Of a stretch of 32,079 nt of DNA, positions 345 through 32,079 are shown piece by piece. The notes under the pieces are model-generated. The model searched no databases. It saw only the letters and a list, made by a program, of their open reading frames with translations, and was not told the origin of the DNA. Source of the stretch: a virus. The stretch spans positions 1 through 32,079 of the IMG/VR virus record IMGVR_UViG_3300010413_000151. One strand, 5' to 3'. Both the position numbers and the translations under genes were made by a program. The first letter of the stretch is position 1. Each line of letters opens with the position of its first letter.

Positions 345-353
345 GATCAAACT

Positions 354-4248: not shown

Positions 4249-4537
4249 TATTGACGTTTGTTCAAACTGGCGCTACTGGTTACAGGCCCAAGCCGCGAAA
4301 CCCACTAAAAGAAGCCCGAAATTTGATATCCCCCTATTTCACATTTTGAGAAAATCCGCAATCCCCCAATTACGGGTTTTCGGGTTTCTCACTCCCCATT
4401 TCCCGCCCTGCGAACCGAACGCGCCTATTTGCGACGAGAAAAGGGTTTTTTCCCGCTTATCTGGGTCGATCTCCGCCAATTGGGGCAAAATGTGCGAAAG
4501 TCCGGGTTATCTCAGAGCTATTCGGCCCGGAAACACG
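4249..4537. other. Spacer between repeat arrays, no gene supported
   Basis: A 121-residue open frame crosses this stretch from 4220, but it starts inside the TATGCGCA array, ends inside the ATATCCCAA array, has no ribosome site and resembles no family I know. I treat the stretch as untranslated control DNA. Confidence 0.4.
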
Positions 4538-16629: not shown

Positions 16630-17059
16630 TATAGCGGTTCTGCAAACAGAAACCGGCGCGGTTATAGCAACATATACGGTAGACTACACTTACGTTGCCC
16701 CGCTACAGTTAGAAGACCTTACTTACAGGCGCATTGTGCCCGCTGGCACGGTACTTGCCTATAATCCCACTACCGGCAAAGTTGTTCCCAACTATACAAC
16801 CTATGGATTTGGAGTGATCGGTGTTAGCAGGCACGATGTTGATTTAGATGAAGTTGGCGCTAACACGGAAGGTGATCGCCTGGTAAGTTGCATTCTTCGT
16901 GGTGTCGTGTATGAGGATAACGCTTGGGATAATGGCACCCACGGCACCGTGCTTCAGGCTACAAAAGACGCGTTGGGTAAGCGTGTTGATTTTGTCAAAA
17001 CAACAAGCAATCACCCGCTCAGCGTTGAGGGGGATTGGCCCGATTGGACCGTTTACTAA
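16565..17059 (+). CDS. Putative head-decoration-type structural protein (164 aa)
   Basis: The centre (I-V-P-A-G-T-V-L-A-Y-N-P-T-T-G-K-V, later G-V-I-G-V-S and L-R-G-V-V-Y-E-D) has the short-strand pattern of lambda-D-like decoration proteins: a P-A-G-T-V-L turn, then a residue stretch with D-x-D and R-G. GTG 16565 is preceded by CGGAGA and overlaps the TerS-like gene by 65 nt. If right, it would sit on the capsid surface. The assignment is by pattern only. Confidence 0.45.
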   Translation: MQDKYIPGRFKKANLRLYPTRSIAVLQTETGAVIATYTVDYTYVAPLQLEDLTYRRIVPAGTVLAYNPTTGKVVPNYTTYGFGVIGVSRHDVDLDEVGANTEGDRLVSCILRGVVYEDNAWDNGTHGTVLQATKDALGKRVDFVKTTSNHPLSVEGDWPDWTVY

Positions 17060-17697
17060 GAGTTTTTATACACCCGCCTAAGGCGGGTGGTGTTTCCACA
17101 ACAGACGCATTAAAAGAGGCGTTGCCGGGTAGAGTTCAGATTTTCCCACGGTATTTTATTGACAGGGAAATTGGCGACGAAACAGATATAGCTATAGGTC
17201 ATTTATCATTTGGTTGTCACAAGACGATAAGGCGGGTTGAAAACCGTTTCAATGTTAGGTACTTGACTCAACTTCGTGACCCCGTTGACCGTGCGTGGTC
17301 ACATTGGAATTACTTAGTTCGTCAAGGCAGAATGGAATTTACCCTGATCGAACTACTGGGAAGTGACCGGGCTATAGCAGATAACCTTATGACGCGTCAA
17401 TTGTCTGGTATGGCACACTCTGAGCCTGTTTCTACTGACCTTAAAGTTACCGACGATGATCTAAGACAGGCTAAATACAACATAGCTCAGCATTTTGACT
17501 GGATTGGTGTACTAGACTATTACAGGGCAAGTATGGCCCGCCTGTCTTTGCTATTGGAAGTAGACTTGCCGGTGTATAGGCACAACACCTGGACACACAG
17601 GCACCCGCCGACTGAGGAAGAGAGGGCGGCGCTAGAGGCAAATAACCAGTTTGATATTGAATTATATAGATGGGTAAAGTCCGTATATTATCCCTAA
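17044..17697 (+). CDS. PAPS-dependent sulfotransferase, copy 1
   Basis: 217 residues. H10-P-P-K13-A-G-G-V-S18 matches the 5'-phosphosulfate loop (H-x-P-K-T-G-G-T-S) of carbohydrate sulfotransferases, and R78-D-P-V-D-R-A-W-S86-H-W is the 3'-phosphate-binding site with its Arg and Ser in the usual spacing. Such enzymes move sulfate from PAPS to a hydroxyl of a sugar or other acceptor. The length is compact but complete. TTG 17044 is chosen for its distance from GAGGGGGA; TTG 17035 lies too close. A second copy follows. Phage sulfotransferases are uncommon. Confidence 0.75.
   Translation: MDRLLRVFIHPPKAGGVSTTDALKEALPGRVQIFPRYFIDREIGDETDIAIGHLSFGCHKTIRRVENRFNVRYLTQLRDPVDRAWSHWNYLVRQGRMEFTLIELLGSDRAIADNLMTRQLSGMAHSEPVSTDLKVTDDDLRQAKYNIAQHFDWIGVLDYYRASMARLSLLLEVDLPVYRHNTWTHRHPPTEEERAALEANNQFDIELYRWVKSVYYP
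17071..17089 (+). other. GC hairpin in the first codons of sulfotransferase 1
   Basis: CACCCGCC (17071-17078) pairs with GGCGGGTG (17082-17089) around a 3-nt loop. These bases encode the P-P-K-A-G-G loop, so part of the symmetry may be forced by the protein. About 30 nt from the start codon, it could reduce translation. Confidence 0.35.
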
Positions 17698-17710
17698 AGT
17701 GGACGCACGT

Positions 17711-18412
17711 ATGAAAGATATCGTTTTATTCACCCACGTATACCGAACCGGGGGAATGGCGGCATACGAGTACCTAAAAGAAAAGATAGGAGACCGGGCG
17801 CAAAGGGCACATCTAGAGCAGATATTGCCAGCGCAGCAAGGCGCCTGGGGCGACACAGAAATAATAATAGGTCACTTTCCTTACGGCACACATAACTTTA
17901 TTCCGTGGCGGACACCAAAATACGTCGCGTTTGTTCGTGAGCCTGCCGATAGGATTTTAAGTCATTGGTTTTCCGGTCAAGACCCGGAACGCACATTTGA
18001 TAAGTTTGTGGAAGGCGCGCGTGATGGGAGATTGGCGACGATTGACAATATGATGACTCGTATACTGTCAAGCCCTAGCCCGGAGCTAATCAAGCGCGGG
18101 CACAATGCGTGCATAATTGACCGTGATATCACCTGGGAAGACTTAGCGCAAGCGAAAACCAATCTTGAAAAACGATATCTCTTTGTCGGGACTACTGAGT
18201 GGTGGTCAGATAGTATGCGTTGGCTGTGTGATTACTTTGATTGGCCTAGCCCTAGTCGTGGACGTTATAAGAAAGATAATTCGTCCAGGTTCAGGCCCAG
18301 AGGCCGGGAGTTACCCGGCGATGTGATGGAGGTAATATATCGGAGAGAAATTTTTGATGTCGAGCTATACCACTTTGCTAAAGAATTGGCTTCAGATTAT
18401 TTGTGGAGGTAG
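17711..18412 (+). CDS. Sulfotransferase-like protein, copy 2
   Basis: 233 residues. It shares the layout of the preceding gene: H9-V-Y-R12-T-G-G at the 5'-phosphosulfate position and R76-E-P-A-D-R-I-L-S84-H-W at the 3'-phosphate site, with the same Arg-to-Ser spacing. The usual Lys of P-K-T-G-G is Arg12 and the Pro is Tyr11, so PAPS binding may be altered or the acceptor different. Both proteins also share I-D-N-M-M-T-R or A-D-N-L-M-T-R. Likely a diverged duplicate. ATG 17711 with AAAGTGG upstream; GTG 17699 is an alternative. Confidence 0.7.
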   Translation: MKDIVLFTHVYRTGGMAAYEYLKEKIGDRAQRAHLEQILPAQQGAWGDTEIIIGHFPYGTHNFIPWRTPKYVAFVREPADRILSHWFSGQDPERTFDKFVEGARDGRLATIDNMMTRILSSPSPELIKRGHNACIIDRDITWEDLAQAKTNLEKRYLFVGTTEWWSDSMRWLCDYFDWPSPSRGRYKKDNSSRFRPRGRELPGDVMEVIYRREIFDVELYHFAKELASDYLWR

Positions 18413-18417
18413 TAAAG

Positions 18418-19152
18418 ATGTACACACCCGATGTATGGGACATTAGACCAGACGGACATAATTCTTTCAACGTTTTACCAAAGCTAGGTGTCGGTGATTA
18501 CCAGACGCTAAAAGACTTCTACCATTTCGACTTGCTAATACAGCACGGCTACAGCCGCGCCAAGCCGGGTGAGTTGTTCTGGGGAGTTGCGGCGCTAGAG
18601 CTTAAAGCAGGACCGGCCATTCTGCAACCACAGGTGCGCGACGAAGAGGGCGGGCTTATCCTAACTCCGCCCGGTATCCTGCTATTCTTGAATTGGCCGG
18701 GAACGGAAGGGTTTCCCGCAACGGTAGACCCGCCATACTTTCAAAACGGTGTAGCTGGCTTCACTGAGGGCAAGGGTAGCATTGGATGGGGTTTTGGCGG
18801 AGACTCGCATATTGGTCCAGACGGCGGACCATTTACCGTGTGGGTTTCCTCAGACCCAATCACGGCAACCTATGAGCGCCGTGTTGGTAGTGATGCGGTA
18901 ACAAAGCTTGGATGGTGGGATGATCATATCATACCTAACCCGATCTTTCAGGTTATGCGCAAAGAGGGAAGCGGCCCGCCTCAGCCGGTCGGTGATATGT
19001 TCCTGGTACAAATCGACCGTGACGGCAAAATACTTGGGTATATGGAGTGGGTAAAGGGTGTCCCCCCAACTGGCGTGGACACTAACGGCGCTGTTGGCCT
19101 GATGGTTGACGGTGTGATCACGCACTTTATGCCCTGGAAAGCGAACAAATAA
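18418..19152 (+). CDS. Hypothetical, probably virion or carbohydrate-binding protein (244 aa)
   Basis: ATG 18418 has a strong GGAGGT upstream. Rich in Gly, Pro, Trp and short strands (I-G-W-G-F-G-G-D-S-H-I-G-P-D-G-G-P-F-T-V-W-V-S-S-D-P), as in a beta-sandwich or lectin-like domain. It lies between sulfotransferases and a methyltransferase within the virion block. It could be a fibre or decoration protein, or the acceptor of the glycan. I cannot name a family. The TAA stop lies in the fourth stop-codon palindrome. Confidence 0.6.
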   Translation: MYTPDVWDIRPDGHNSFNVLPKLGVGDYQTLKDFYHFDLLIQHGYSRAKPGELFWGVAALELKAGPAILQPQVRDEEGGLILTPPGILLFLNWPGTEGFPATVDPPYFQNGVAGFTEGKGSIGWGFGGDSHIGPDGGPFTVWVSSDPITATYERRVGSDAVTKLGWWDDHIIPNPIFQVMRKEGSGPPQPVGDMFLVQIDRDGKILGYMEWVKGVPPTGVDTNGAVGLMVDGVITHFMPWKANK

Positions 19153-19161
19153 ACGGTTTAT
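19149..19161. repeat. Stop-codon palindrome, copy 4
   Basis: ATAAACGGTTTAT, a perfect 13-bp odd palindrome and the other-centre version of copy 2. TAA at 19150-19152 ends the preceding gene; AGGGGGT, the next ribosome site, follows. Confidence 0.7.
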
Positions 19162-19175
19162 AGGGGGTATGCGTT

Positions 19176-19829
19176 TTGAATGGCAAGGAATACGGTTTCC
19201 AAAAAGAATTGAACCTGATAGACACATATGAGAAAGTGCCGGGTTGGTGTAGCGTAGAAAAGATGCGCTTTATGCAAGCGCAAATCAGGGATACAGCCAA
19301 GCGCATACCCCCCAAGGGCAAGCATTTTGAAATACTCGATTTAGGTAGTTGGAAGGGCAGAAGCGCGGGCGCTCTGGCAAACGCTTTGGGCGAAAATATT
19401 CCGTCTTTTGTGTGGTGCGTTGACCACTGGTTAGGCGCGCCCGCAGAGCGGAATACCAATCATATTCAGGCCGGTATTCGCCCGCTTTCTGTCCTTTGGG
19501 AATTCTTGCAATATATGTCACACCTTGGGCTGTTGGGTAAGAAGATCGGCTACATATCTATGCCGACTGTGGAAGCGGTGAGCTATTTCGAAGATGGTCA
19601 GTTTTCGTTTATGTTTATTGACGCCGATCACGAGAATATGCGCCGTGATGCACTGTTGTACTTGCCCAAGCTTAAGCCTGGGGGTGTTGCGGTTTTTGAT
19701 GATCTTAACTGGCCTCTGGTTAGGAGTGATTGGAATTTGCTAATGGGTGAATTGCCAGTCAACGAATACGACCTGTCAGAGCATAATGTAAATGGTCCTG
19801 TTGGGCGAATACTCAAAAAGATTGTCTAA
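19176..19829 (+). CDS. Class I SAM-dependent methyltransferase
   Basis: 217 residues. E52-I-L-D-L-G-S-W-K-G-R62 is the SAM-binding motif I. V-D83-H-W follows at the end of strand 2. F-I-D149-A-D-H-E and the K-L-K-P-G-G-V-A-V-F-D-D block are typical of the group often found beside glycosyltransferases that methylates sugars or small acceptors. TTG 19176, with AGGGGGT 8 nt upstream, is the only start that keeps the protein complete. An acceptor cannot be named; O-methylation of a glycan would fit the neighbours. Confidence 0.75.
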   Translation: MNGKEYGFQKELNLIDTYEKVPGWCSVEKMRFMQAQIRDTAKRIPPKGKHFEILDLGSWKGRSAGALANALGENIPSFVWCVDHWLGAPAERNTNHIQAGIRPLSVLWEFLQYMSHLGLLGKKIGYISMPTVEAVSYFEDGQFSFMFIDADHENMRRDALLYLPKLKPGGVAVFDDLNWPLVRSDWNLLMGELPVNEYDLSEHNVNGPVGRILKKIV

Positions 19830-19838
19830 CCGTTAGAC
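19824..19838. repeat. Stop-codon palindrome, copy 5
   Basis: GTCTAACCGTTAGAC, perfect 15-bp odd palindrome, differing from copy 3 only at its centre. TAA at 19827-19829 ends the methyltransferase gene. A G-rich ribosome site follows. Confidence 0.8.
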
Positions 19839-19862
19839 ACCGGGGGGTGGGAGAACGAAGAA

Positions 19863-20504
19863 ATGGCTGATGCAACTTGGGGCGAAAGATACCCGCAGAT
19901 ACAAGACGATGGCGACTTAAAGATACACCTGTCCGGGTCTGATACGGGCGTTGCCGTAACGACATACCCTATAGATGGTCAGTCGTGGCTAGTAGACGGT
20001 GATAGCAAGGCAATTGTAACTATACCGTGGGAGCATCACTTAGTACACGAAGGATACATGTGGTCCTCACTTCATTTGAAAACGGGCATTGCCAATGATG
20101 GCAAATACTTGATTCACTTTAAGACCGGGAGCGGAAAGCGTGTTCACCTAGCTATAGAACTGCAAGCATCCACAAAAGCGTATGCAACTGTTTACGCCGG
20201 GGCTACAATGTCGGCTAACGGAACAACCATACCGGTAGGGTCTAACAAGTTGGGTAACACAGATTTTCAACCAGACATCGCGCTTTATCATACCCCTACC
20301 GTAAGCGTCAACGGAAGTGCTATGGGTCAGTTGCTTATGGGGAGTGGTACTAAGCAAAACCCCGCTGGCGGTTCTAGTCGCGCCTCTGGTGCGGAGTGGG
20401 AACTTGCACAGAATACTAGCTATTGGGTTTTGGTAGAAGGGAAGGGCGGCGCAGGTGTTACAACGGACTTTTCATTTGAGGCCCTATTCTACAGAGAGCC
20501 GTAA
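19863..20504 (+). CDS. Phage structural protein (head-fibre-like family), copy 1
   Basis: 213 residues. I-P-W-E-H-H-L-V-H-E-G-Y-M-W at about 58-71, G-K-R-V-H-L-A-I-E-L, A-T-V-Y-A-G-A-T-M-S-A-N-G-T and a final E-W-E-L-A-Q-N-T-S-Y-W-V-L fit the pattern of a family of beta-rich phage virion proteins near head genes (H-x-x-I-H-x-G, then L-Y-E-G, then E-W-x-L). The next gene shares the same landmarks. Probably a capsid-associated fibre or spike. Position before TerL fits. Confidence 0.55.
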   Translation: MADATWGERYPQIQDDGDLKIHLSGSDTGVAVTTYPIDGQSWLVDGDSKAIVTIPWEHHLVHEGYMWSSLHLKTGIANDGKYLIHFKTGSGKRVHLAIELQASTKAYATVYAGATMSANGTTIPVGSNKLGNTDFQPDIALYHTPTVSVNGSAMGQLLMGSGTKQNPAGGSSRASGAEWELAQNTSYWVLVEGKGGAGVTTDFSFEALFYREP

Positions 20505-20635
20505 GTGAAATAGTTCACGTGGCTTGCCCAGAGACGCTCTAAGCTTTCAAAGGTACTAGGTGTCGTATTCTGCGCTCAGGGGGCTTAGAAACGGGTGCAA
20601 TGGGCATAGCGGGCGTTTTGCCGGGATGGTGAGAA

Positions 20636-21232
20636 ATGGCTAAAAACGTTGATAGTGTAGTAGCGATATTTGGGACCGTTAAAGATGCGGGTGATACAAA
20701 AATAAGGATTGACCCGGAAACAGGTTCTTTAGTTATCGTGCCCTGGCAACATTTTTTGATACACAAGGGGCTATTGTATGCCGCCGCATATATGCACGAG
20801 AGCATATCTAAAAATGGTGTAGCGGATATGATTGTCTCGGCGTGTCCTAATCACTCACTGCACGTTTTTTCTGCGAAGTGGGTATCTGGCGGTAAAGCGC
20901 ACCTAGAACTTTATGGCGCGCCTGTATGGGAAGAGGGGACCGGTACAGAAATTTACGCAAGCAATATGTTGTTTGGAAGCCCCAATACAAGCACTACGCT
21001 GATTATAGCAGACCCGGTGCTTACAAGTCCGGGTGTGCTGGCCCACAAGCAACTAATGGCGGGTGGTGTATTGCCTTATCTGTATGGCGGACACCACGAA
21101 ATTGCTCACGAGTGGGTGTTGCCAGCGGGCGGCAAAGTGCTGGTAAGAATTAGAAACCTGGCAAATACAACGGTGGACATTTCTTGGCAATTAAACTTTT
21201 TTGAAAACGGCGATAACATTTTATGGGATTAG
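20636..21232 (+). CDS. Phage structural protein (head-fibre-like family), copy 2
   Basis: 198 residues. V-P-W-Q-H-F-L-I-H-K-G-L-L-Y aligns with the landmark of the preceding protein, as do H-L-E-L-Y-G-A-P and H-E-W-V-L-P-A-G-G-K-V-L-V. These look like paralogs that diverged after duplication. ATG 20636 with GGTGAG. The 131-bp gap before it holds only a weak 5-bp hairpin at 20505-20518 and no convincing gene. It overlaps TerL by 10 nt. Confidence 0.55.
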   Translation: MAKNVDSVVAIFGTVKDAGDTKIRIDPETGSLVIVPWQHFLIHKGLLYAAAYMHESISKNGVADMIVSACPNHSLHVFSAKWVSGGKAHLELYGAPVWEEGTGTEIYASNMLFGSPNTSTTLIIADPVLTSPGVLAHKQLMAGGVLPYLYGGHHEIAHEWVLPAGGKVLVRIRNLANTTVDISWQLNFFENGDNILWD

Positions 21233-23079
21233 TTCAGACGTTGCCAGTGGTTAGCGACCCTCTTCTTACTGCAAGCGTGGAAGAGTGGGCGCTACACAAG
21301 GCGCGGTTGGTAAAACAGCTATACCAGCGCGGTTTAGAGTATGAGCCGTGGTCTAAAGATCGTGCTGATTGGTGGTACAAGTCGTTGACGTATTTCGTCA
21401 ACGAATTCATATTATCGCCGGTTGAAGGTATGGAAGACCAGGCGGAAAAGCTTCCAATGCCAGATTTTCACAGGGATTGGTATTGGTGGCGCGTGTCAGA
21501 GCAAAATTATCTCAATTTAGCCCCACGTGATCACGCAAAAACGTCTGTGCATACTGTGTTTTCTACGGTGTGGGAAATTTGCGTTAACCGGAATATTCGT
21601 ATCTTCATCGTTTTCTCAACAACGGATGTTGCGAAATTGGTGTTGGCGGAGATCAAAAGCCAGTTAACGCAAAACCCACTTATTCGCGCCGGGTTTGGCA
21701 TCTTCAATCCCGCTGAATTAGACGCGAGTGAGCGCACGGTTGACCAGGACTGGTCACAGAATAGCATCACGGTAAATCGCCCAGGTTTCGGCATCAAAGA
21801 CCCCACGGTTGCGGTTGCTGGCGCATTGACTAACGTGTTATCAAGGCGCGCTGATCGTTTGCTAGTTGACGACCCTCTCACGGACGCTATAGCCCACTCA
21901 GAAGCTAAATCGTTGGCACTAGAGCGTTGGTATGCAAATGACGTGCAACCCGTTTTGGTCCGTGGCGGACAAGAACTTATAACCGGCACTCTATATAGAA
22001 AGGGCGACTTTTACCATAAGATAATGGAATTGGATAAAGAGACCGGGGGCATATACAGAATCTTTGTCGGTGATGCAATTCTCGATGAGGCAAACAAGAC
22101 TGTTTTATGGCCCGAAAGATGGTCTTATAAAGATTTAGAAATTCAGCGCGCCAAACTTGGTTATGTCCACTTTAACCGTAACTATAGAAACAGGATTGTA
22201 TCAGACGCGGATAGCGTGTTCCCGATGATATGGTTTACGGGCGGGCTAGAAGAGTCTACGGGCATTGTGTACCGTGGTTGCTTTGAGCCAACGCTAACAC
22301 TTGGGATGGGACCAAAATTACCCGGTCGTGGTCGTTGGTTGCAGTATATTGTTATGGGTGTTGACCCCGCTATAGGCTATTCGGACACTGCGGCTTATTT
22401 CGCGCTGGTTGTATTGGGCATAAATTATAGAAACGAGATCGTCATTGCCGATTTGGTTAGGGGTCAGTACGGATTTGTGCATCAAAAGCGCCTCATTGCT
22501 CAAAAGTATTACCAGTGGAAACCCAGGCACGTTATCGTGGAGTCAAATGCGTATCAAAAGGCGCTGGCTGAAGGTATGCAAGAAAGTTATCCAGAAATAC
22601 CAATAGTGCCGTATTACACGAGCGGTCAGAGGTTGCCGCCCGATATCGGTGTTCCGGGTATGGATGTCTACTTTGAAACCGGGCGCTTCAGGATACCGCG
22701 CGGAAGCCAGCACTCTATTGAGGCCACAGACAAATTGATAGAAGAGTTGCACTACTGGGGTGTTCACGACACATCTGACACTGCTATGGCGCTGTGGTTC
22801 GCTTTTCAGAGAGTAGTTGACAAGCTTGAAAGAATGGGCGCGTTGCCGCCTACTGAAAACCTGATATTTGGCGACCGCTTACGTTGGGAAGCCGGGATGA
22901 TAAAGGGTTTGGGCGGCGGTATCATACCACGTGGCGTGCAAGCCGAAATAGCGCGCGCGGCTATGGCTGGCCCACTAGCCAGGAGATCACCAATAGGAAA
23001 CCGGGGTGTTGGGCTGTTTAGCACAGCGTTCACAAGGCCCGGTAGGAGAGTAGTCGATGGAAGATACACGGATGATTGA
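21223..23079 (+). CDS. terL: Terminase large subunit
   Basis: 618 residues, normal for TerL. The N-terminal ATPase has the adapted Walker A L99-A-P-R-D-H-A-K106-T107-S and Walker B L-L-V-D216-D217. The C-terminal RNase-H-like nuclease has V-D381-P-A-I-G, V-I-V-E440-S-N and H-D-T-S-D519. It cuts phage DNA and drives it into the prohead through the portal, which is the next gene. The Walker A lacks the usual G-S-G-K and has the R-x-x-A-K-T/S form common among terminases. ATG 21223 is inside the 3' end of the previous gene with no clear ribosome site, suggesting coupling. About 70 extra residues lie after the last catalytic acid. Confidence 0.9.
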   Translation: MGLVQTLPVVSDPLLTASVEEWALHKARLVKQLYQRGLEYEPWSKDRADWWYKSLTYFVNEFILSPVEGMEDQAEKLPMPDFHRDWYWWRVSEQNYLNLAPRDHAKTSVHTVFSTVWEICVNRNIRIFIVFSTTDVAKLVLAEIKSQLTQNPLIRAGFGIFNPAELDASERTVDQDWSQNSITVNRPGFGIKDPTVAVAGALTNVLSRRADRLLVDDPLTDAIAHSEAKSLALERWYANDVQPVLVRGGQELITGTLYRKGDFYHKIMELDKETGGIYRIFVGDAILDEANKTVLWPERWSYKDLEIQRAKLGYVHFNRNYRNRIVSDADSVFPMIWFTGGLEESTGIVYRGCFEPTLTLGMGPKLPGRGRWLQYIVMGVDPAIGYSDTAAYFALVVLGINYRNEIVIADLVRGQYGFVHQKRLIAQKYYQWKPRHVIVESNAYQKALAEGMQESYPEIPIVPYYTSGQRLPPDIGVPGMDVYFETGRFRIPRGSQHSIEATDKLIEELHYWGVHDTSDTAMALWFAFQRVVDKLERMGALPPTENLIFGDRLRWEAGMIKGLGGGIIPRGVQAEIARAAMAGPLARRSPIGNRGVGLFSTAFTRPGRRVVDGRYTDD

Positions 23080-24562
23080 TAGCGCACTGCCAGCGGCGGT
23101 AGAGTTGGCAGAAATGCAAATGCCAAGGATGTATTTAGATGTCGAGCAACCAAACATTATCCGCAGGGTTGCCAATCGCTTACTTGCCAAGCCTGGTCCG
23201 AAGCCGCGCATTAAAACGTATGCGTATAGAGGCAAGACTCCGCCTCAGCTATACTCGACAATGCGGCGGATTGGTGAATACAGGGAAGACCCTGTTTCAC
23301 TGGAAACATACGATCTAATTAGGCACTACCCGGTTGTGAAGCTTGGACTTGTCGCGCGCGCAGCACCGATTTTCACGGCGCTTAGAGAAGTCAAGGTTGA
23401 TGGTAGCAATGAAGATATAAACGCGTTTATAGAATATGTCTTTGTCAAGGAGTGGCTTATCAAGCTTGCTCAGCAAACTATTATACCTAGCTACGCTTTT
23501 GGAATTGCGCCCAATGAGGTAGTGTGGAAGTCTGTTCCAAAGCTTACCGTTGAATATGTAAACTCTGAGGGTATGCCGGGTGTGGCCTGGAATGGACCGG
23601 CATTACTGTTTGATGAGTTTAGATTTATACACCCGTTGTCCCTGAAAGAAATTGTTATCAAGAAAGACAGGACAAAAGACTATAACGGCTTAATACAGTG
23701 GCCGCCCGCTGGACAGGAAGAGATATGGATACCGCCCGTAAAGACGTTGCACTTTGTAAATAATCAGCTATGGGCCGGTTTGTGGGGCGAAAGCGAGTTA
23801 CGCGCTCTCTACGCGGGTTGGTACTATGCAGAATTTTTCAGGGCGCTACAGGCTGACTATCTCAGGTTCAAGGTTATTCCGCCTCTCGTTGGTTATGCGC
23901 CGCCTGGTACGCGTATAGACGAAAACGGTGTAGAGAGAGACAATATGGAAGTGGCGGGTGAGGTTCTGGCGGGCGCTTTCGCAAATATGGTTGTTGTGCT
24001 ACCAGATGAAAGGGATGATCGGGGAAACCAGCAATGGAGTTATCAAGAACTAACAACCCAGAACGTAAGCGATGTATACACAAAAGCGATTGAAGAATTA
24101 GAAGTGCTTATGTTGCGGGCTATGCTTGTGCCAGAAAGAACCGTAACACAAAATATGGCCGCTGTTGGGTCATACAACCAGGCGCAAGAGCACGCTGAGC
24201 GTATGGTTGATATGGCTAAACTGGAAACCGATCATTTTCTAGCAATGGTAAACGAACACCTAATACCCAAGCTTGTTGAAGACCATTTTGGACCGGACGC
24301 GCCGCCAGCAAAGATTAAGGCGCACAACTTATCTGAGGCGCTTAAGGAAAAGCTGCAAACCATCGTGTTGACCATTTTGCAGAATGATAAATACGGCATA
24401 TACGCTCAGCAAGTTGCGTTTCAAGACCTATTGGAGTTTGTGGGTATACCGTGGCGAACTGGCGGAAAAGAGGGGTTGCCAGAGCCAATATTCCCTGAGC
24501 CAGCAACACCCGGCGCGCCAGACGAAACCGGCAACGGCGACGATAGTGTTGACAAACGTTAA
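23057..24562 (+). CDS. Portal protein
   Basis: 501 residues. The order (R-I-G-E-Y-R-E-D-P; long helical stem around 110-140; H-F-V-N-N-Q-L-W-A-G-L-W-G-E-S-E-L-R at about 230; A-Y-A-G-W-Y-Y-A-E-F-F-R; later V-P-E-R-T-V-T-Q) matches phage portal proteins of the Mu gp29/DUF935-like group. It forms the dodecameric ring at one capsid vertex. ATG 23057 follows GGAGAG and overlaps TerL by 23 nt. The C-terminal tail is Pro/acidic. Its 3' end contains the -35 box of the next promoter. Confidence 0.8.
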   Translation: MEDTRMIDSALPAAVELAEMQMPRMYLDVEQPNIIRRVANRLLAKPGPKPRIKTYAYRGKTPPQLYSTMRRIGEYREDPVSLETYDLIRHYPVVKLGLVARAAPIFTALREVKVDGSNEDINAFIEYVFVKEWLIKLAQQTIIPSYAFGIAPNEVVWKSVPKLTVEYVNSEGMPGVAWNGPALLFDEFRFIHPLSLKEIVIKKDRTKDYNGLIQWPPAGQEEIWIPPVKTLHFVNNQLWAGLWGESELRALYAGWYYAEFFRALQADYLRFKVIPPLVGYAPPGTRIDENGVERDNMEVAGEVLAGAFANMVVVLPDERDDRGNQQWSYQELTTQNVSDVYTKAIEELEVLMLRAMLVPERTVTQNMAAVGSYNQAQEHAERMVDMAKLETDHFLAMVNEHLIPKLVEDHFGPDAPPAKIKAHNLSEALKEKLQTIVLTILQNDKYGIYAQQVAFQDLLEFVGIPWRTGGKEGLPEPIFPEPATPGAPDETGNGDDSVDKR

Positions 24563-24577
24563 GCCGTATGATATAAT
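24549..24577 (+). promoter_or_regulatory. Promoter, leaderless start
   Basis: TTGACA (24549-24554), 17 bp, perfect TATAAT (24572-24577) with TGA before it. ATG 24584 is 6 nt after the -10 box, and no ribosome site is present. It overlaps the end of the portal gene and starts a new unit. Confidence 0.85.
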
Positions 24578-24583
24578 CGCTTT

Positions 24584-24823
24584 ATGTATTCTTTCAAGTA
24601 TTGGGGTGATAGCGAAAACGAAGAGGAATGGTTAGTAAATCACGATGGTAAGGTTATCGTGTTCCCAAGCCTTAAGTTTGCAAAGGCGCTATTACCCATA
24701 CTTACTAGTGGCATTGCCCGACGCGTGACCATAGAGAAATACAATGGCGAACTTGAAACGGCACCATTATCACGTGAGGCAGAAATAGCCAGGGCGTTAG
24801 AACAAAATGACAGACGACGTTGA
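24584..24823 (+). CDS. Hypothetical protein (79 aa)
   Basis: Leaderless by promoter position. N-terminal F-K-Y-W-G-D, then I-V-F-P-S-L-K-F-A-K-A-L-L-P-I-L; basic C-terminus (N-D-R-R-R). No family recognised. It overlaps the next gene by 17 nt. Confidence 0.6.
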   Translation: MYSFKYWGDSENEEEWLVNHDGKVIVFPSLKFAKALLPILTSGIARRVTIEKYNGELETAPLSREAEIARALEQNDRRR

Positions 24824-25121
24824 TATACCTAAGCCCATTCAGAGAAGTGCGTATGTCGAAATAACGAGTGATGTGTTGTGCCAGCGTCTAATTTGGCTCA
24901 AAAGATTTGTGGATAGAAACGGGTTTTTCCCGACATACGAAATGATAGCGAACGGTTGGCAAGTAACCAAGTCAGCCGTAAGGCACTCACTTTCTCTTAT
25001 GGCTGAGCGCGGATGGGTAAGGTTTGTTGGTAAGAGGTCTATTTTAACCAACGAAGATACGTGCTATGAACCGAAACCCGAAAGGGTTGTAACGGGGGAA
25101 GGATGGCGAAGGTTGAGCTAG
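24807..25121 (+). CDS. Winged-helix DNA-binding protein (104 aa)
   Basis: Residues 30-75 (F-V-D-R-N-G-F-F-P-T-Y-E-M-I-A...V-T-K-S-A-V-R-H-S-L-S-L-M-A-E-R-G-W-V-R) follow the LexA-N/MarR-like winged-helix layout: helix, turn, recognition helix starting S-A-V-R-H, then a wing strand. It is a candidate regulator of late gene expression and sits directly after the leaderless promoter. The exact operator is unknown. No clear ribosome site, so probably coupled. Confidence 0.55.
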   Translation: MTDDVDIPKPIQRSAYVEITSDVLCQRLIWLKRFVDRNGFFPTYEMIANGWQVTKSAVRHSLSLMAERGWVRFVGKRSILTNEDTCYEPKPERVVTGEGWRRLS

Positions 25122-25321
25122 GTTTGTCAGCTATATCGCTGGCGCTGTTAGCCACAATTCTATACATCATAAGAATGAAGCCCCGCAAGCCGAAAAGACC
25201 GGAATGGCAACAGGTCTATCTTGATACGGCTGGCGGGTATGTTTTGTGTTGGTGTAATGATATTCTTACAACGACCCAGGCAGTTTTTTTACATTGGCAA
25301 ATGGGGCACTTTGATAGGTGA
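25103..25321 (+). CDS. Small membrane-anchored protein (72 aa)
   Basis: ATG 25103 with GGGGGAAGG. An N-terminal transmembrane helix (about 5-23) is followed by a basic stretch (K-P-R-K-P-K-R-P) and a soluble part with C-W-C. No family recognised. Confidence 0.55.
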   Translation: MAKVELGLSAISLALLATILYIIRMKPRKPKRPEWQQVYLDTAGGYVLCWCNDILTTTQAVFLHWQMGHFDR

Positions 25322-25324
25322 TAT

Positions 25325-26551
25325 ATGGACGATCTTAACATATCTGAAGATTACGGTTTTGTGATAAGGAACCTGATCAGGTCGGGCTTTGAAGGAAATT
25401 TCGCTGAGCATATCAAAGACACCTTGCGCGCTTGGGATAATCCCACTGATAGTCCTGCGGAAGTGATAGGATATTTAACACAAAAGGGCTATGAGTTCGG
25501 CACAAGCGGTCTATCTATGCACGCGAAAGCCGTTGATCTTATGGCGCATCTGATTGAGTATTATACCACTCTGCCTAGCTACAATATATTGGTGGTGTCA
25601 ACCGCGTCAATACTAACACCACCTGAGCGGTATGGCGGTATGGAAAGAATGGTAGATTACTTGTCACGCGGGCTAAGTTTTCTGGGGCATCACGTGCAAG
25701 TGGTCGCCAAGACGAAGTCAACAAATCCTTTCATAATTGCAACGGCGGGCGATGAAAAAGATTTTCCCGAAGTTGTTTCTGAAATAATTGACGAATTCGA
25801 TATAGTAATTGACCTTTCGCACGATAAGCGCATAGGGCAAACTTACCCAGAGAAACCACAGCTAAATGTGTACCAAGTTATGAGTGTTGGGCACAGGGTG
25901 AATCCTGTGTTTATTTCATATGGGCAAAAGCGGCACACTAGGCTAAATGGGCCTGTGGTGCATTATGGGTTGCGCCTGGAAGACTACCCCGTGAATTACC
26001 GTGTTCGGGATGATTACTTGCTGTATATGGGGTCTATCATACCAGAGAAGCGGGTAGAATGGGCAATTGATGTTGCGCTGAAAATGGGCAGGCCCATTAA
26101 GATAGCCGGTCCTCACTGGGAACCGGACTACTGGAAAAACGTAATAACACCATTGCTTAAAGCTGAGGGGGTGGATTATGTAGGCGACGTTGGCGGAGAG
26201 CGAAAGCTAGAACTGTTGCAAAACGCATTTGCCCTTATACATCCAGTTGGCGGATTTAATTGGGTAGAAGCGGGGGCGATAATCGCACAAGAAAGCAATG
26301 CTGTTGGTACTCCGGTTGTGGCAACAACAAACGGGTGTCTCCCGGAATATATTAGAGACGGAGAGAACGGCTATATGAGTGATACGCCCGATGGTATGGT
26401 TGAAGCTATGAAACCGATGGTAGAGGGACGCGGGCCAACTTGGTTTTCTTGTCGAAAAGCAACCGCGCCTAGAAATTGGTTTAAGATGTCTATTGACTAC
26501 CACAACTTAGCTACAGATGTTCTAAATGGACAAAGATGGACAGGAGGCTAG
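25325..26551 (+). CDS. Glycosyltransferase, GT-B fold, family 4 type
   Basis: 408 residues. R102-Y-G-G-M-E107 begins the N-terminal Rossmann domain, preceded by about 85 extra residues of unknown role. The C-terminal donor domain has L-Y-M-G-S-I-I-P-E-K-R near 235, E323-S-N-A-V-G-T-P-V-V and P-E341-Y-I-R-D-G-E-N-G-Y, the family 4 signatures for nucleotide-sugar binding. It would transfer a sugar from an NDP donor. ATG 25325 with AGGTGA. First of five glycosyltransferase genes. Confidence 0.8.
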   Translation: MDDLNISEDYGFVIRNLIRSGFEGNFAEHIKDTLRAWDNPTDSPAEVIGYLTQKGYEFGTSGLSMHAKAVDLMAHLIEYYTTLPSYNILVVSTASILTPPERYGGMERMVDYLSRGLSFLGHHVQVVAKTKSTNPFIIATAGDEKDFPEVVSEIIDEFDIVIDLSHDKRIGQTYPEKPQLNVYQVMSVGHRVNPVFISYGQKRHTRLNGPVVHYGLRLEDYPVNYRVRDDYLLYMGSIIPEKRVEWAIDVALKMGRPIKIAGPHWEPDYWKNVITPLLKAEGVDYVGDVGGERKLELLQNAFALIHPVGGFNWVEAGAIIAQESNAVGTPVVATTNGCLPEYIRDGENGYMSDTPDGMVEAMKPMVEGRGPTWFSCRKATAPRNWFKMSIDYHNLATDVLNGQRWTGG

Positions 26552-26554
26552 TAA

Positions 26555-27058
26555 ATGAGTACCGATCAAGTATTGTATCTAATTTACAATTTCATTCTGA
26601 GCCTGTGGGCCGACACCGTTGTTAAGGTGATTGTGCTTCAGGTCTCGCTAAACTTCGTGGCGGCTATTGCCGCCGCCGTTGCAACCGGCGCGTTTAAGGT
26701 TGACAAGCTAATCGAAGTGTTTTATCGAAAGCTTTTCCCGCTGATTATGATATACGCTATTTCTCGTGTTGTATCAGAGGCGTTGTCTACCCTACAACCT
26801 GGGGATGTCGGCGGGGTTTTTGATACGCTGGTTACGTTTATCTTAGCTAATCTTCCACTGCTTTCACTGGCGGCAATTGAGTTGCTACTTATCAAAGACC
26901 TGCTTAATAGTCTGGCTCAAATTCCTGGGCTTCAGGGTATGACAGATGCGGTGCCTAGCAAGCTTGGGAATACCGTCTTTGATAGGGACACTCTACTTAC
27001 GGCCCAAGCCAACCGGCGCGCACCCGTTATAGAAAGGGTGCCGCCTAAGGGTTACTAA
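26555..27058 (+). CDS. Putative holin-like membrane protein (167 aa)
   Basis: ATG 26555 with AGGAGG. Three or four hydrophobic helices (about 20-46, 60-75, 85-112) with the pattern L-N-F-V-A-A-I-A-A-A-V-A-T-G-A-F-K-V-D-K-L, similar to phage holins that have a long first helix, a G-x-F-x-x-x-K-L turn and a second helix. The polar C-terminal tail is about 50 residues. No endolysin lies beside it in the window, so lysis function is not supported by context. The TAA stop is in the sixth palindrome. Confidence 0.45.
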   Translation: MSTDQVLYLIYNFILSLWADTVVKVIVLQVSLNFVAAIAAAVATGAFKVDKLIEVFYRKLFPLIMIYAISRVVSEALSTLQPGDVGGVFDTLVTFILANLPLLSLAAIELLLIKDLLNSLAQIPGLQGMTDAVPSKLGNTVFDRDTLLTAQANRRAPVIERVPPKGY

Positions 27059-27065
27059 CCGTTAG
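27055..27065. repeat. Stop-codon palindrome, copy 6
   Basis: CTAACCGTTAG, an 11-bp odd palindrome with shorter arms than copies 3 and 5. TAA at 27056-27058 ends the holin-like gene. The ATG of the next gene begins at 27066, directly after the right arm. GTTAG-ATG also occurs at 5724 and 6120 without a full left arm. Confidence 0.65.
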
Positions 27066-27317
27066 ATGGTAGATGTATGGGGGGCGCAGGCAGTAGTAGC
27101 CAATAACACAGAGCCATTCACGCAAGCTGAATTCCTTGACGAAATTCAAAACATATTAGACGATGCTAGATCGGGAATGTCAGAAACGTTGGTTACTACT
27201 GCCTGTATGATTACCGTCTTAAGGTACGCGAACGGCATTGGTGTAAATATTGACGAAGAAGTTAGCAACGCAATTCGTAGTGCGGTAACGAATGAATGGA
27301 AGAAAAGAACAAGATAG
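27066..27317 (+). CDS. Hypothetical protein (83 aa)
   Basis: ATG 27066 abuts the palindrome; no separate ribosome site. Mostly helical and acidic (T-Q-A-E-F-L-D-E-I-Q-N-I-L-D-D-A). No family recognised. It overlaps the next gene by 22 nt. Confidence 0.6.
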   Translation: MVDVWGAQAVVANNTEPFTQAEFLDEIQNILDDARSGMSETLVTTACMITVLRYANGIGVNIDEEVSNAIRSAVTNEWKKRTR

Positions 27318-28024
27318 CGTTGATAGTGCCGTCATATAATGATTGGCATTTCTTAGCCAGATTTACCGATTCGTTGTTTCAATCAATAACTGGCGTGCCA
27401 TTTCAGATAATAATAGTTGATGATCATTCCACAGACGGCACCGTTGCGTGGGTTACTAGCAACCTTGAAAATTACGTAACGTATATAAGGCCAGAAAGCA
27501 AGTCGTATTTTACCAGGGCTGTGAATCACGGTATTTCCTACGCGCTTCAAAATACAGAAAGTGATTATTTTCTTATCGTTAATAGCGATATTACATTTAC
27601 AGATTATTGGGGCGCTGGTATGGTTGGCACGTCTATACAGAAAGAGGCCGGTATAGTTGGCGCTACCCTATTAAACCCAAACGGCACATTACAACACGTT
27701 GGCGCATTTGGCCGGGGTAGGCATATCGACATAAACAAAATACAGACCCGGTTTTTTGATGGGTACGAACCGGCGTGGGTCACTGGCGCGGCAATGATGG
27801 TTAAGCGTGAAGTATTTCTAGAAATAGGCCTGTTTCCCGTTCTGGTTGGTGAGCCGGTGCAATACGACGCATCGGATAGAGAATTCTGCAAAAATGCTAC
27901 ACTGGCCGGAATCAATATAGCAGTTAGCCCCGTAGTTTTATATCATCACACATTGCAAGCTGAGAGCTACCGGCGTGCTATGGGCCAATACAGTAGTTTT
28001 GCAATGTCTCGCGCGGACAGGTGA
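27296..28024 (+). CDS. Glycosyltransferase family 2 (GT-A)
   Basis: 242 residues. I-V-P-S-Y-N at the start, I-V-D42-D43-H-S-T-D-G-T for nucleotide binding and V-N96-S-D98 at the DxD-like metal site are GT2 signatures. V-T-G-A-A-M-M-V-K-R-E-V-F follows as in rhamnosyl- and related transferases. It uses an NDP-sugar and a metal ion. The donor is unknown. Second glycosyltransferase gene, overlapping the previous gene. Confidence 0.8.
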   Translation: MEEKNKIALIVPSYNDWHFLARFTDSLFQSITGVPFQIIIVDDHSTDGTVAWVTSNLENYVTYIRPESKSYFTRAVNHGISYALQNTESDYFLIVNSDITFTDYWGAGMVGTSIQKEAGIVGATLLNPNGTLQHVGAFGRGRHIDINKIQTRFFDGYEPAWVTGAAMMVKREVFLEIGLFPVLVGEPVQYDASDREFCKNATLAGINIAVSPVVLYHHTLQAESYRRAMGQYSSFAMSRADR

Positions 28025-28026
28025 AA

Positions 28027-29064
28027 ATGAGAGTTTCAATAGTAAGAGATCGTTGGCTTAACCCTTGGGACGTTGGTAACTATGCGGGCTTAACAGATAT
28101 GGTAGGTAGCTTGACGTTTTGGGGACGACAGACCGCTAACGGTGATATAGACTGGCAGGCGTTGCGCGAATTGTACCCCGGTGCCGAATTCAAAGCATAC
28201 AACAGAACGTATGAGGTTATAGAACACGAACCGGACATTATTGATGTGCCAGACGCTCACTATGAGTTCACACAAGACTTGGTTGGCCGTGGTATAAAGA
28301 CCGTGATTGCAACCTGGGATAACCTACCCGGCAAGAACACAATAAACACTAGCGCCAGAAAAGCACTTATTGAGGCAGATGGTTTTATAGCTAGAAGCAC
28401 TATGGCAAAACAGGCGCTTATGTTTGATGGTGTAGTGCCTGATAGGATTAGACGGATACCGGGCGCTGTTAACACAAATTTCTTCAAGCCGCTCAAAACC
28501 ACTGAGCGTGAAGATGCTGTTTTATTTGTGGGAAGATTGGTAAATGAAAAGGGAATACAGGTTTTGATGTGGGCGATATCCCAAGTCCCCGGTGTTGAGT
28601 TGTGGATTGTGGGCACAGGCCCGGAAGAAGAGGCATTAAAGAAATGGACCGATTACGCGGGTATACACGATAGAACAAGATGGTTAGGAACACTGTCGAG
28701 ACACGAATTAGCAGATGTATACAGACAAGCAAAGGTGCTTGCAGTTCCTAGTGTGCCAAAACTAGAAAGTCACCCATACTCGACTTGGTTAGAGCAATTC
28801 GGGCAAGTCATCATAGAGGGCTTAGCATCCGGGTTGCCCATTGCCGGGTCTTTGAGTGGTGCTATACCTGAGGTCGGCGGAGATGTTGCGGGACTTTATC
28901 ACATTCCGATGCAATGGCCGAAATTGGCGGAAGACATTAACACTATCATTTTCGGTAAGGGAGTATTCACTAGAATGTCACGTGCTGCGAGAAAAAGGGC
29001 GGTTACGTATTATGATAGTATTATTGTGGCCGAAAAAACCCTTTCCTGGTACAACGTACTATGA
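28027..29064 (+). CDS. Glycosyltransferase, GT-B fold, family 4 type
   Basis: 345 residues. V-L-F-V-G-R-L-V-N-E-K-G near 165 is the usual start of the donor domain; E-Q-F-G-Q-V-I-I-E-G-L-A-S-G-L-P-I near 255-271 and G-A-I-P-E-V follow. The N-terminal domain has D-V-P-D-A-H-Y-E-F and W-D-N-L-P-G. ATG 28027 with ACAGGTGA; GTG 28021 lies inside that site. Its 3' end overlaps the next ATG by 4 nt. Confidence 0.8.
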   Translation: MRVSIVRDRWLNPWDVGNYAGLTDMVGSLTFWGRQTANGDIDWQALRELYPGAEFKAYNRTYEVIEHEPDIIDVPDAHYEFTQDLVGRGIKTVIATWDNLPGKNTINTSARKALIEADGFIARSTMAKQALMFDGVVPDRIRRIPGAVNTNFFKPLKTTEREDAVLFVGRLVNEKGIQVLMWAISQVPGVELWIVGTGPEEEALKKWTDYAGIHDRTRWLGTLSRHELADVYRQAKVLAVPSVPKLESHPYSTWLEQFGQVIIEGLASGLPIAGSLSGAIPEVGGDVAGLYHIPMQWPKLAEDINTIIFGKGVFTRMSRAARKRAVTYYDSIIVAEKTLSWYNVL

Positions 29065-29768
29065 CGAAAATTGCTGTTAGTATGATTATGCAAGACGAAG
29101 AAGAGTATATTGGCCGTGCGGTTAGCAGTGTGACATTTGCGGACTGTGTTTGTATTTATGATTTTGTCAGTCAAGATGACAGTGTGTGGATTGCCAAACA
29201 GAGCACGCCAAAGGGTGTGTTGTTATATTTAGACCAAGTCGAATGGCCCGACGATTTTTCGGCGGCACGCAATCTCTCGTTGGGCCTAGTGCCCACTGAT
29301 CGTGTTGATTGGTGGATGCGGTTAGATGCAGACGAAGAATATTCGCCCGATCTACGGGCTAATATTGTCGATATGTTAGAGAGCTTACCAGATGACATCA
29401 CGGCTGTGCGTATAAGGCAAACTAACTTGTGGCCCGATAAAGACCACTACGCCGCAAACCTGGGCGGGTTTGAGACGCACCCAAGAATCTTTAGGGTGCC
29501 GCGCGATGGAAGTTACCAATTGTGGTCCGGGCAGGTGCACGAATTCGTTAAGGTAATGGGCTTAAACGGTTTAGTACCTATACCACAGAGTCAAATAGCA
29601 ACTTGGGGTGCACAGGTTTTTCATTATGGGTGGCTAGAAAAGTCTAGGCGCGAACAACGAGAAGATTTATACGCTACTATGCCGGGGTCTGGGGTAAAAG
29701 GGCGCGGCGACTTGACAGATAGAAAATATGCGGTTAGAGAACTACCGCCAGGAGTCAGGGATAGATGA
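29061..29768 (+). CDS. Glycosyltransferase family 2, WaaE/KdtX-like
   Basis: 235 residues. M-I-M-Q-D-E-E-E-Y-I-G-R-A at the N-terminus, D-F-S-A-A-R-N and W-W-M-R-L-D89-A-D91-E-E match the GT2 group of lipopolysaccharide-core-like glucosyltransferases that begin with N-E-E and have D-F-S-x-x-R-N. The D-A-D is the metal site. The pair S-Q-D-D replaces the usual S-x-S-x-D-x-T near 37. It has an ATGA overlap on both sides. Confidence 0.75.
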   Translation: MTKIAVSMIMQDEEEYIGRAVSSVTFADCVCIYDFVSQDDSVWIAKQSTPKGVLLYLDQVEWPDDFSAARNLSLGLVPTDRVDWWMRLDADEEYSPDLRANIVDMLESLPDDITAVRIRQTNLWPDKDHYAANLGGFETHPRIFRVPRDGSYQLWSGQVHEFVKVMGLNGLVPIPQSQIATWGAQVFHYGWLEKSRREQREDLYATMPGSGVKGRGDLTDRKYAVRELPPGVRDR

Positions 29769-32079
29769 AAATTGCCTTTATCGCCGGTCACATTGGTTCA
29801 TCTGGGCTTAAACCATCTGGTCAATACGGGGGTGGGGAGTTACATACATTTGCTTTTCTAGACATTCTCAGAAAAAAATACGATGTAACGGCAATAGTCC
29901 CTAATCTTTTCTACCCCGCATTTGATAGCGCGGCAGAATACGGCTATGATTTAGAGGGCTTAGAATGGCGACCGATGGGCAAAAACCTAGATTGGCTCAG
30001 AACCTTTGACGTAATGATCGCCAAAGATCACGGAAGATTGTATCCGCCAATATGTCATAGAAACATTCTGTCCGTTTTCTTTCCCCAATACCCCGATTGG
30101 GGCGAGTCGATTGGTGGGTATGACACTGTATTGGCAAACTCGCAATATACCGCCAGTTGGGTCAAGCGTTATTGGAAACGTGATGCGGATGTGGTATATC
30201 CGCCAGTGCCAATAGATAACATCCTGTCTGTTGCCGGGTCTCCGTCGCCAAAGAAGTTTAATCGAATAGTAAACATTGGCCGGTTTTTTCGTGTTGCCGC
30301 TGGCAACAACAAGAACCACTTGGTTGTCATCAACGCTTTCAAGAAAATGATGCTTCCAGATTGGGAACTTGTCTTGATCGGTGCCAAGCAAGATGGTGTG
30401 TATTTTCAAGAAGTGCTTGATACAATCGGGGACGATAAACGCATCAAGATTTATCACGATCTACCACGTCAAGAGTACATAGATATGTTAGCCCAGAGCC
30501 GTTTTATCTGGGCGGCAACCGGCTATAGTGGCGGAGAAGATATCCCGCCTAGCTCACGTGAGCACTTCGGTATTTTCCCGGTTGAGGGCGCTGTGTTAGG
30601 CACAATACCGTTTGTGCATAATTCTGGCGGTTCACCCGAAGGGCCAACGTTAGTTTGGGATACCCCGGATGATTTGATCGAGAAGACAAGGGAACTTATA
30701 GAAGACCAGGAAAAGGCAAAGCGAACCGCTAATGATCTGAAGCAAAGGGCGAGACAGTTTGATATTGAGGTACAAGCGGCGCGCCTGATCGAGATTATAG
30801 AAAGACCTGTTGTGGTACTGCCAGAGGAAGGCAAGGGCAAGGTTTTTATATCAGCGCCAGCGCGCGAAAACATAACGGTTGGGATGGTTTCGGATAGCGC
30901 CGAAAGGACAACCGGCTTTGGTATGGTGACTAAAGGCGTTGGAACTAGATTGTCAGAGATGGGGTATAAGGTAAAGCTGTTGGGGCTTTCAGACCCGCAC
31001 AGAGGACCGCCCAATTATACAGACTTGCTATATACTTGGCGTGCTTGGCCCGGTGAGAATTACCACAATCTTGTCAAGTCTTTTGTTCAAGAAGAGAAAG
31101 TAGACGTGCTTTATGTGAATTATGACCCCGGCAATATACGCCTGGTTCTTGATGCGCTAATGGGTAGTAGTATAGACATCCCGGTTGTAAGCTATATGCC
31201 CATAGAAGCCGCGCCGGTGATACCCCAGATGATAGACACGCTTCGACTTGTGCGCTTGTTTAATGGCGAAACCATCTTATATACCAGATGGGCGGTAGAG
31301 CAGGTATTAAAGGCGGGTGGTCCAAGGTGCGCATTTGTTTATCACGGTGCCGATCACGCCGACTTTAGGCCACCAACCCCAGAAGAAGCCATTAAGGTTA
31401 GGCGCGCGGTTGGTTGGGAAGATAAATTTGTGATAGTGAGCGTTGGCCGAAACAAAAGGTCTAAAAACCATCAAATATTGCTTGACGCTATTAAGATTCT
31501 CGTTGATGCTGGTCACAATGATATAAGGGCGTATATACACAGCAACCCTCACGATTTTGTCCCCAACTCTTCGGTGCCGCTGTATGACACTGTAGAAGTT
31601 AGGGGGCTTCAGGGCATCGTTGAATTTCCCGCCGACTTGCACGATCAGACGCGCGGTGTTCAGTATGATGGTGATAGGTTCATCCAGGCACCGGACACAA
31701 ACGATGAAAATGAACTTAGGCGCATTATGATATCTGCGTTGAATTATATGGAACGGCTTTGGTTGGCTTTTCCAAATGGCGCGTATGTAAATACATCTAT
31801 GGCTGAGGGTTTCGGCTTGCCGCAAATTGAGGCTATGAGAGTCGGCTTGCCTGTCATTAGTATTGACGACCAGGGGCCACAGCGTGAGGTTATGGGCAAC
31901 GTGCCAATTTGGGTGCCCCATTCCTGGGAAGAGTATTGGAATACTGGCGCTATTCTCAGAAACGCCAACCCCGCTCACATAGCCCAAGCGATTATAGACC
32001 TTAAAGAAGGCAATCGGGGCTTAGATCGTTGGGAACTTTCAACAATGGGTATAGAATGGGCGCATCGCTATACCTGGGA
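29765..32079 (+). CDS. Bifunctional glycosyltransferase, two family 4 domains (partial)
   Basis: Open from ATG 29765 to the right edge, 771 codons without a stop. The first GT-B unit: Q20-Y-G-G-G-E25 loop, V-N-I-G-R-F-F near 168, and E-H-F-G-I-F-P-V-E-G-A-V-L-G-T near 265-280. A linker near 360 leads to a second unit: T-V-G-M-V-S-D-S near 370, V-S-V-G-R-N-K-R near 557 and S-M-A-E-G-F-G-L-P-Q-I-E-A-M near 680. Two active-looking domains suggest one enzyme making two linkages or a repeating disaccharide, or a duplication in which one domain is structural. The 3' end is outside the window. Confidence 0.8.
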   Translation, partial: MKIAFIAGHIGSSGLKPSGQYGGGELHTFAFLDILRKKYDVTAIVPNLFYPAFDSAAEYGYDLEGLEWRPMGKNLDWLRTFDVMIAKDHGRLYPPICHRNILSVFFPQYPDWGESIGGYDTVLANSQYTASWVKRYWKRDADVVYPPVPIDNILSVAGSPSPKKFNRIVNIGRFFRVAAGNNKNHLVVINAFKKMMLPDWELVLIGAKQDGVYFQEVLDTIGDDKRIKIYHDLPRQEYIDMLAQSRFIWAATGYSGGEDIPPSSREHFGIFPVEGAVLGTIPFVHNSGGSPEGPTLVWDTPDDLIEKTRELIEDQEKAKRTANDLKQRARQFDIEVQAARLIEIIERPVVVLPEEGKGKVFISAPARENITVGMVSDSAERTTGFGMVTKGVGTRLSEMGYKVKLLGLSDPHRGPPNYTDLLYTWRAWPGENYHNLVKSFVQEEKVDVLYVNYDPGNIRLVLDALMGSSIDIPVVSYMPIEAAPVIPQMIDTLRLVRLFNGETILYTRWAVEQVLKAGGPRCAFVYHGADHADFRPPTPEEAIKVRRAVGWEDKFVIVSVGRNKRSKNHQILLDAIKILVDAGHNDIRAYIHSNPHDFVPNSSVPLYDTVEVRGLQGIVEFPADLHDQTRGVQYDGDRFIQAPDTNDENELRRIMISALNYMERLWLAFPNGAYVNTSMAEGFGLPQIEAMRVGLPVISIDDQGPQREVMGNVPIWVPHSWEEYWNTGAILRNANPAHIAQAIIDLKEGNRGLDRWELSTMGIEWAHRYTW

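Follow-up and report, generated by a model that had tools for sequence, protein, structure and literature searches.

The virus record IMGVR_UViG_3300010413_000151 comes from an uncultivated tailed phage and is probably a fragment of the phage genome; all 32,079 bases of it were analysed and are referred to here as the window. Among its head and packaging genes the window encodes a set of predicted glycan-modifying enzymes: two sulfotransferases (ST1 and ST2), a methyltransferase and the products of five glycosyltransferase genes. From position 16036 to the right contig end all genes lie on the + strand and most touch or overlap their neighbours. First in this run is the gene for a probable terminase small subunit (TerS; 16036..16629), which lacks a strong profile match and has homologues before the terminase large subunit (TerL) gene in the related contigs L003, L013, L014, L015 and L022. 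It is followed by a head protein gene of the phrog_909 type (16565..17059; E 1.8e-7). Further along lie the genes for TerL (21223..23079; phrog_38, E 2.3e-54) and the portal (23057..24562; Portal_Mu, E 9e-16). These profile matches bear out the TerL and portal assignments made in the first-pass annotation, which had also described TerS-like and decoration-like genes; the latter finds support in the phrog_909 head family match, whilst TerS is identified by its position only.

ST1 (17044..17697) and ST2 (17711..18412) are probably carbohydrate-type O-sulfotransferases by descent and fold, with a predicted activity dependent on 3'-phosphoadenosine 5'-phosphosulfate (PAPS). An initial reading of the DNA had placed two PAPS-type sulfotransferases here, but profile searches with the individual proteins were unsuccessful: ST1 gave no match in Pfam, PHROG or NCBIfam, ST2 matched no PHROG and reached the Pfam Sulfotransfer_2 family (PF03567) at a sub-threshold level (E 0.0078; 16.8 bits against a gathering cut-off of 22), and NCBIfam returned nothing for any of the sulfotransferases. 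Despite this, we consider the identity of the two proteins to be settled because of their matches to each other and to a related phage, a profile built from phage sequences, and their predicted folds. The two are diverged paralogues (27% identity, E 8e-15), and G001, an 83-kb related phage whose TerL is 55% identical to that of the window, encodes two proteins that score above the Sulfotransfer_2 cut-off and whose matches to ST1 and ST2 have E-values between 1e-8 and 1e-11. Alignment of ST1 and ST2 with five other phage proteins reveals an invariant 3' phosphate motif, R-x-P-x-x-R-x-x-S (LRDPVDRAWSHW in ST1, VREPADRILSHW in ST2), together with a conserved GG in the 5' loop, an invariant His and a C-terminal D-x-x-L element that takes the form D-x-x-LY in ST1 and ST2. 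When the profile of these seven sequences was run against all PDB chains, it identified the heparan sulfate 6-O-sulfotransferase (E 1.4e-19) and 2-O-sulfotransferase (E 1.5e-13). Foldseek comparison of the AlphaFold models with the PDB gave the 6-O-sulfotransferase 5t05 as the best match for ST1 (pLDDT, a model confidence score, of 84; E 8.8e-10, TM 0.74) and the 2-O-sulfotransferase 4ndz for ST2 (pLDDT 72; E 1.1e-6). In the 5' phosphosulfate loop (PKxGG), ST1 retains the Lys (HPPKAGG) and ST2 carries Arg in its place (HVYRTGG), making the activity of ST2 less certain than that of ST1. Scans of viral contigs with ST1 or ST2 as single queries returned no relatives, and tblastn searches of 50,697 phage records found no match for ST1, ST2 or three of their relatives.

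The two sulfotransferase genes are part of a 4,163-base cassette of six genes located between the phrog_909-type head gene, which forms its left border, and the TerL gene. The third gene encodes a 249 amino acid protein (18403..19152) with no Pfam or PHROG match and the fourth an S-adenosylmethionine-dependent methyltransferase (19176..19829), an earlier assignment that the Methyltransf_24 profile upholds (E 1.2e-13) and to which a weak match to TylF, a sugar O-methyltransferase family, can be added (0.033). The last two genes encode paralogous phrog_5335 proteins: copy a (19863..20504; E 1.5e-9), with 17% Ser+Thr, is a possible virion surface protein, and the stop codon of copy b (20636..21232; E 1.2e-8; E 6e-10 to copy a) overlaps the start of the TerL gene. 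A virion role for these proteins is plausible because a phrog_5335 homologue in the Methylophilales phage MEP301 is encoded between TerL and the head-tail connector. The exact gene overlaps at both borders of the cassette (17044/17059 and 21223/21232) suggest that it is co-expressed with the head genes.

In five related contigs (L003/G001, L012, L013, L014 and L022) the phrog_909-like head gene and the TerL gene overlap by 7-11 bases, without intervening genes. As L012-L014 are near copies of one another, these contigs represent about three lineages, and comparison across them suggests that the cassette was gained in the lineage of the window. Chimeric assembly at this site was considered and is unlikely, given the exact border overlaps, the uniform GC content (0.487 compared with 0.474-0.480) and the lack of long flanking repeats.

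The glycosyltransferases are encoded behind the portal gene. The first-pass annotation had five genes and six domains at 25325-32079, and all pass their Pfam cut-offs. In order, these are a GT4 enzyme (25325..26551; Glycos_transf_1, E 1.3e-13; 49.5% identical to its G001 counterpart), a GT2 enzyme (27296..28024; Glycos_transf_2, E 2.5e-19; 42%), a second GT4 enzyme (28021..29064; Glycos_transf_1, E 4e-23; 41%), a second GT2 enzyme (29061..29768; Glycos_transf_2, E 8.5e-6; phrog_13126, E 3e-14; 41%) and a two-domain GT4 enzyme that is interrupted by the contig end (29765..32079; Glycos_transf_1, E 5.5e-25, in several stretches; 44% and 37% for the respective halves of the G001 gene). No clear membrane segment is present in any of the enzymes encoded in the cassette and the block, and neither a flippase nor a polymerase was seen in the block. 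Between the first two glycosyltransferase genes lies a gene for a small, holin-like membrane protein with three hydrophobic segments (26555..27058; Phage_holin_4_1, E 0.007, below cut-off). The block is preceded by a gene encoding a winged-helix-like protein (24807..25121) that is free-standing in the window; in G001 and L012/L014 its homologue forms the N-terminus of a larger protein with a C-terminal GT2 glycosyltransferase (L003:14236-15318 and L012:5234-6283). The transferase genes had been described as embedded in the block of virion genes, on the same strand and in overlapping order. Location, strand and overlap are as described, but the TerL and portal genes separate the cassette from the glycosyltransferase block, so that there are two units rather than one.

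Further information comes from related phages. The five glycosyltransferases of the window are found in G001 in identical order, at 37-50% identity, in a block where they are accompanied by additional glycosyltransferases, three methyltransferases and two sulfotransferases. The portal gene borders this block on one side, and on the other are genes for the head maturation protease, the major capsid protein and the tail. In L012-L014 and L015 (TerL 43-55% identical) the same locus is occupied by related but different glycan genes, encoding GT2 enzymes, methyltransferases and a DegT sugar aminotransferase, with an epimerase in L015. The glycosyltransferase block is old, and from the gene content at this place in G001, L012-L014 and L015 we conclude that the head operon of this phage group maintains a glycan module whose gene content varies. 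Two members of the group have acquired sulfotransferases, each at a different site. These enzymes are not a fixed trait of the group: none of 46 other TerL-related records matches PF03567 at E 1e-3, a threshold that ST1 and ST2 would also fail.

Several other features of the relatives can be recorded here. The two-domain GT4 of G001 (1213 amino acids; L008:6202-9843, equivalent to 24701-28342 of the G001 record) has an intein-like insertion in its second domain, starting CFSGDTLITLSDG and ending NNIVVHN, that the window copy lacks. G001 also has genes for a DUF6884 fusion of a TGT/DpdA-like protein and for a Vut_1 (YhhQ-type) transporter (L003:2084-3400 and 3357-4004), suggesting 7-deazaguanine DNA modification in that phage. 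The contig L022 (WJJK01000131.1; TerL 58% identical), which encodes a TnpB-like protein close to the right end, is binned in a Candidatus Altiarchaeales metagenome-assembled genome. This sole match to a species genome could reflect an archaeal host or misbinning, the binned genome has no adenosine 5'-phosphosulfate kinase, and we did not use it to assign a host.

Sulfotransferases of this type are encoded by other viruses too. A broader scan identified Sulfotransfer_2 genes in 49 viral records, of which 48 were above cut-off, and in nine of the 49 a glycosyltransferase is encoded within 10 kb of the sulfotransferase. In three records that were inspected by eye, the sulfotransferase gene belongs to a large sugar cluster with epimerases and aminotransferases. 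One 124-kb record (G094, L141) contains about eight Sulfotransfer_2 and four GT2 matches, and in two other phages the sulfotransferase gene (L019:9977-10777 and L021:9968-10723) sits directly behind a gene for a pectate-lyase-type, tail-spike-like protein, a further virion-linked context. Phage sulfotransferases are already catalogued as PHROG 3347 and as named phage entries in BFVD. Phrase searches of the literature for papers on phage sulfotransferases found none; elsewhere these proteins are listed as auxiliary genes (PMC8290583, PMC12285232) and their role is stated to be unclear (PMC10580990).

What might these enzymes do? Judged from sequence and structural models, we tentatively favour, at somewhat less than even chances, a phage glycan-decoration module that adds sulfate and methyl groups and is expressed with the late head genes, its target most likely being a virion surface protein. 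Soluble cytoplasmic glycosyltransferases would build a short oligosaccharide stepwise on such a protein, for which the two phrog_5335 proteins and the phrog_909 protein are candidates. The methyltransferase would then cap the glycan with methyl and the sulfotransferases with sulfate from host PAPS, giving the particle a negatively charged, masked surface. We favour this because both sulfotransferases are closest in fold and motif to glycosaminoglycan O-sulfotransferases and because the border overlaps of the cassette suggest co-expression with head genes. In addition, the glycosyltransferases and sulfotransferases of G001 are encoded in one block that is bounded by the portal gene and by those for the protease and capsid, and the corresponding locus of the deeper relatives L012 and L015 is occupied by other glycan genes. 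The lack of clear membrane segments in the enzymes and of any flippase or polymerase seen in the block points the same way, as do the precedents from mycobacteriophages and a Rhodococcus phage discussed below. The first-pass suggestion of a methylated, possibly sulfated glycan on the virion or a host polymer is supported in part, by the enzyme identities, the head/packaging location, and the association seen in G001 and in nine of the 49 viral records. A more specific proposal is that particles of this phage display a glycan bearing sulfate and methyl groups, and that the cassette was acquired and supplies the virion proteins to be modified as well as the enzymes that modify them; we rate this as possible but on the unlikely side. 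We know of no earlier example of virion-directed sulfation in any bacterial or archaeal virus.

A number of points weigh against virion decoration. The sulfotransferase and glycosyltransferase genes of the window are non-contiguous, being 7 kb apart, and ST2 has Arg for the usual Lys of the PAPS loop. Genes for PAPS synthesis were not recognised in the window, and the sulfate donor must therefore come from the host. In 40 of the 49 viral records there is no glycosyltransferase within 10 kb of the sulfotransferase, and the pairing is therefore not obligatory. The proposed glycan acceptors are candidates only, and gene position alone is no proof of a virion target: morons, too, lie in late operons.

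The main rival is a host-directed role, in which the module would remodel a polymer of the host surface (capsule, O-antigen, cell-wall glycan or archaeal S-layer glycan) in the manner of serotype conversion, with the sulfotransferases sulfating the polymer and the outcome being a block to superinfection or altered adsorption. PHROGs classes related glycosyltransferases and sulfotransferases, GtrB-like families included, under morons, auxiliary metabolism and host takeover, and both the three large sugar clusters in other viral contigs and the small membrane protein within the glycosyltransferase block would fit such a role. Nevertheless, neither a GtrA-type flippase nor a polymerase nor a membrane-anchored polyprenol glycosyltransferase turned up in the block, expression from a late head operon would come too late to be of much help against superinfection, and the cassette also encodes two possible virion proteins. 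We therefore regard a host-surface target as rather unlikely, and less likely than a virion target.

More doubtful still is the idea that the sulfotransferases are functionally separate from the glycosyltransferases, either sulfating protein side chains or small molecules or being degenerate passengers on a mobile moron. Their presence in an insertion specific to the lineage, with 7 kb between them and the glycosyltransferase block, the Lys to Arg change in ST2 and the absence of a nearby glycosyltransferase for most viral sulfotransferases are all in keeping with this. On the other hand, ST1 and ST2 are both open frames that retain the 3' phosphate motif, their predicted folds are closest to glycan O-sulfotransferases, and the G001 sulfotransferases are encoded within the homologous glycosyltransferase block. 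Finally, it is highly improbable that the glycosyltransferases and capping enzymes modify phage DNA, producing hypermodified bases that protect against host nucleases: phage DNA glycosylation is known in general, and the TGT/DpdA-like protein and Vut_1-family transporter of G001 are suggestive of 7-deazaguanine DNA, but the glycosyltransferases here belong to general GT2/GT4 types, the window gave no sign of an enzyme that hydroxymethylates bases and we know of no sulfated DNA base.

The left end of the window (1-4500) is mostly non-coding. It contains tandem repeats with units of 20-29 and 59 bases at 16-247 and of 29, 44 and 73 bases at 3091-3242, and the GC skew changes sign near 4.6-5 kb. 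An open reading frame at 354-1253 (- strand) encodes a protein-kinase-like glycine loop (GSFGSVYEV) and Cys-rich, zinc-ribbon-like repeats, with weak Pfam matches.

The finding that carbohydrate-type sulfotransferases are encoded both within a conserved block of glycosyltransferase genes and next to head genes offers a concrete, testable guess at the substrate of phage sulfotransferases. Were virions to carry sulfated glycans as we propose, there would be consequences for the charge of the particles and for their adsorption, environmental stability and recognition, and the glycan sulfotransferases, being small, soluble and PAPS-dependent, would be a gain as tools.

How does the window compare with known systems? 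Like serotype-conversion (gtr) modules, it encodes phage glycosyltransferases acting on glycans, but without a GtrA flippase or membrane GtrB being found; instead there are soluble glycosyltransferases and one weakly holin-like membrane protein, in a head operon. With the Sulfotransfer_2 (PF03567) heparan sulfate 6-O and 2-O enzymes (5t03/5t05 and 4ndz) ST1 and ST2 share a common fold, the PAPS 5' loop (with Arg for Lys in ST2), the 3' phosphate motif and D-x-x-LY, yet they are only about 17-20% identical to them, are about 220 amino acids long, lack a membrane anchor and are phage-borne. PHROG 3347 ('Galactose-3-O-sulfotransferase') and the BFVD entries from uncultured Caudovirales likewise represent sulfotransferase genes in tailed phages, and cyanophages and OM43 phages have Sulfotransfer_3 genes (PMC10580990); the window pair differs from the catalogued examples in being arranged in tandem, beside head genes, with a methyltransferase and a glycosyltransferase block. 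In mycobacteriophages, capsid and tail-tube proteins receive glycans from phage-encoded transferases (Freeman et al. 2023, as relayed in PMC12363180), and a glycosyltransferase and methyltransferase in a Rhodococcus phage have been interpreted along similar lines (PMC13313380). As with the mycobacteriophage examples (Che8 gp110, Corndog gp38 and Myrna), whose known targets, as described there, are capsid and tail proteins, the glycosyltransferases of the window are phage-encoded, and their genes lie among virion genes, behind that for the portal. The window differs in having six domains in one block plus a methyltransferase and two sulfotransferases, and in belonging to another phage group. 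Sulfotransferases in phages and virion glycosylation in mycobacteriophages are both already known; what is new is the arrangement of these known parts.

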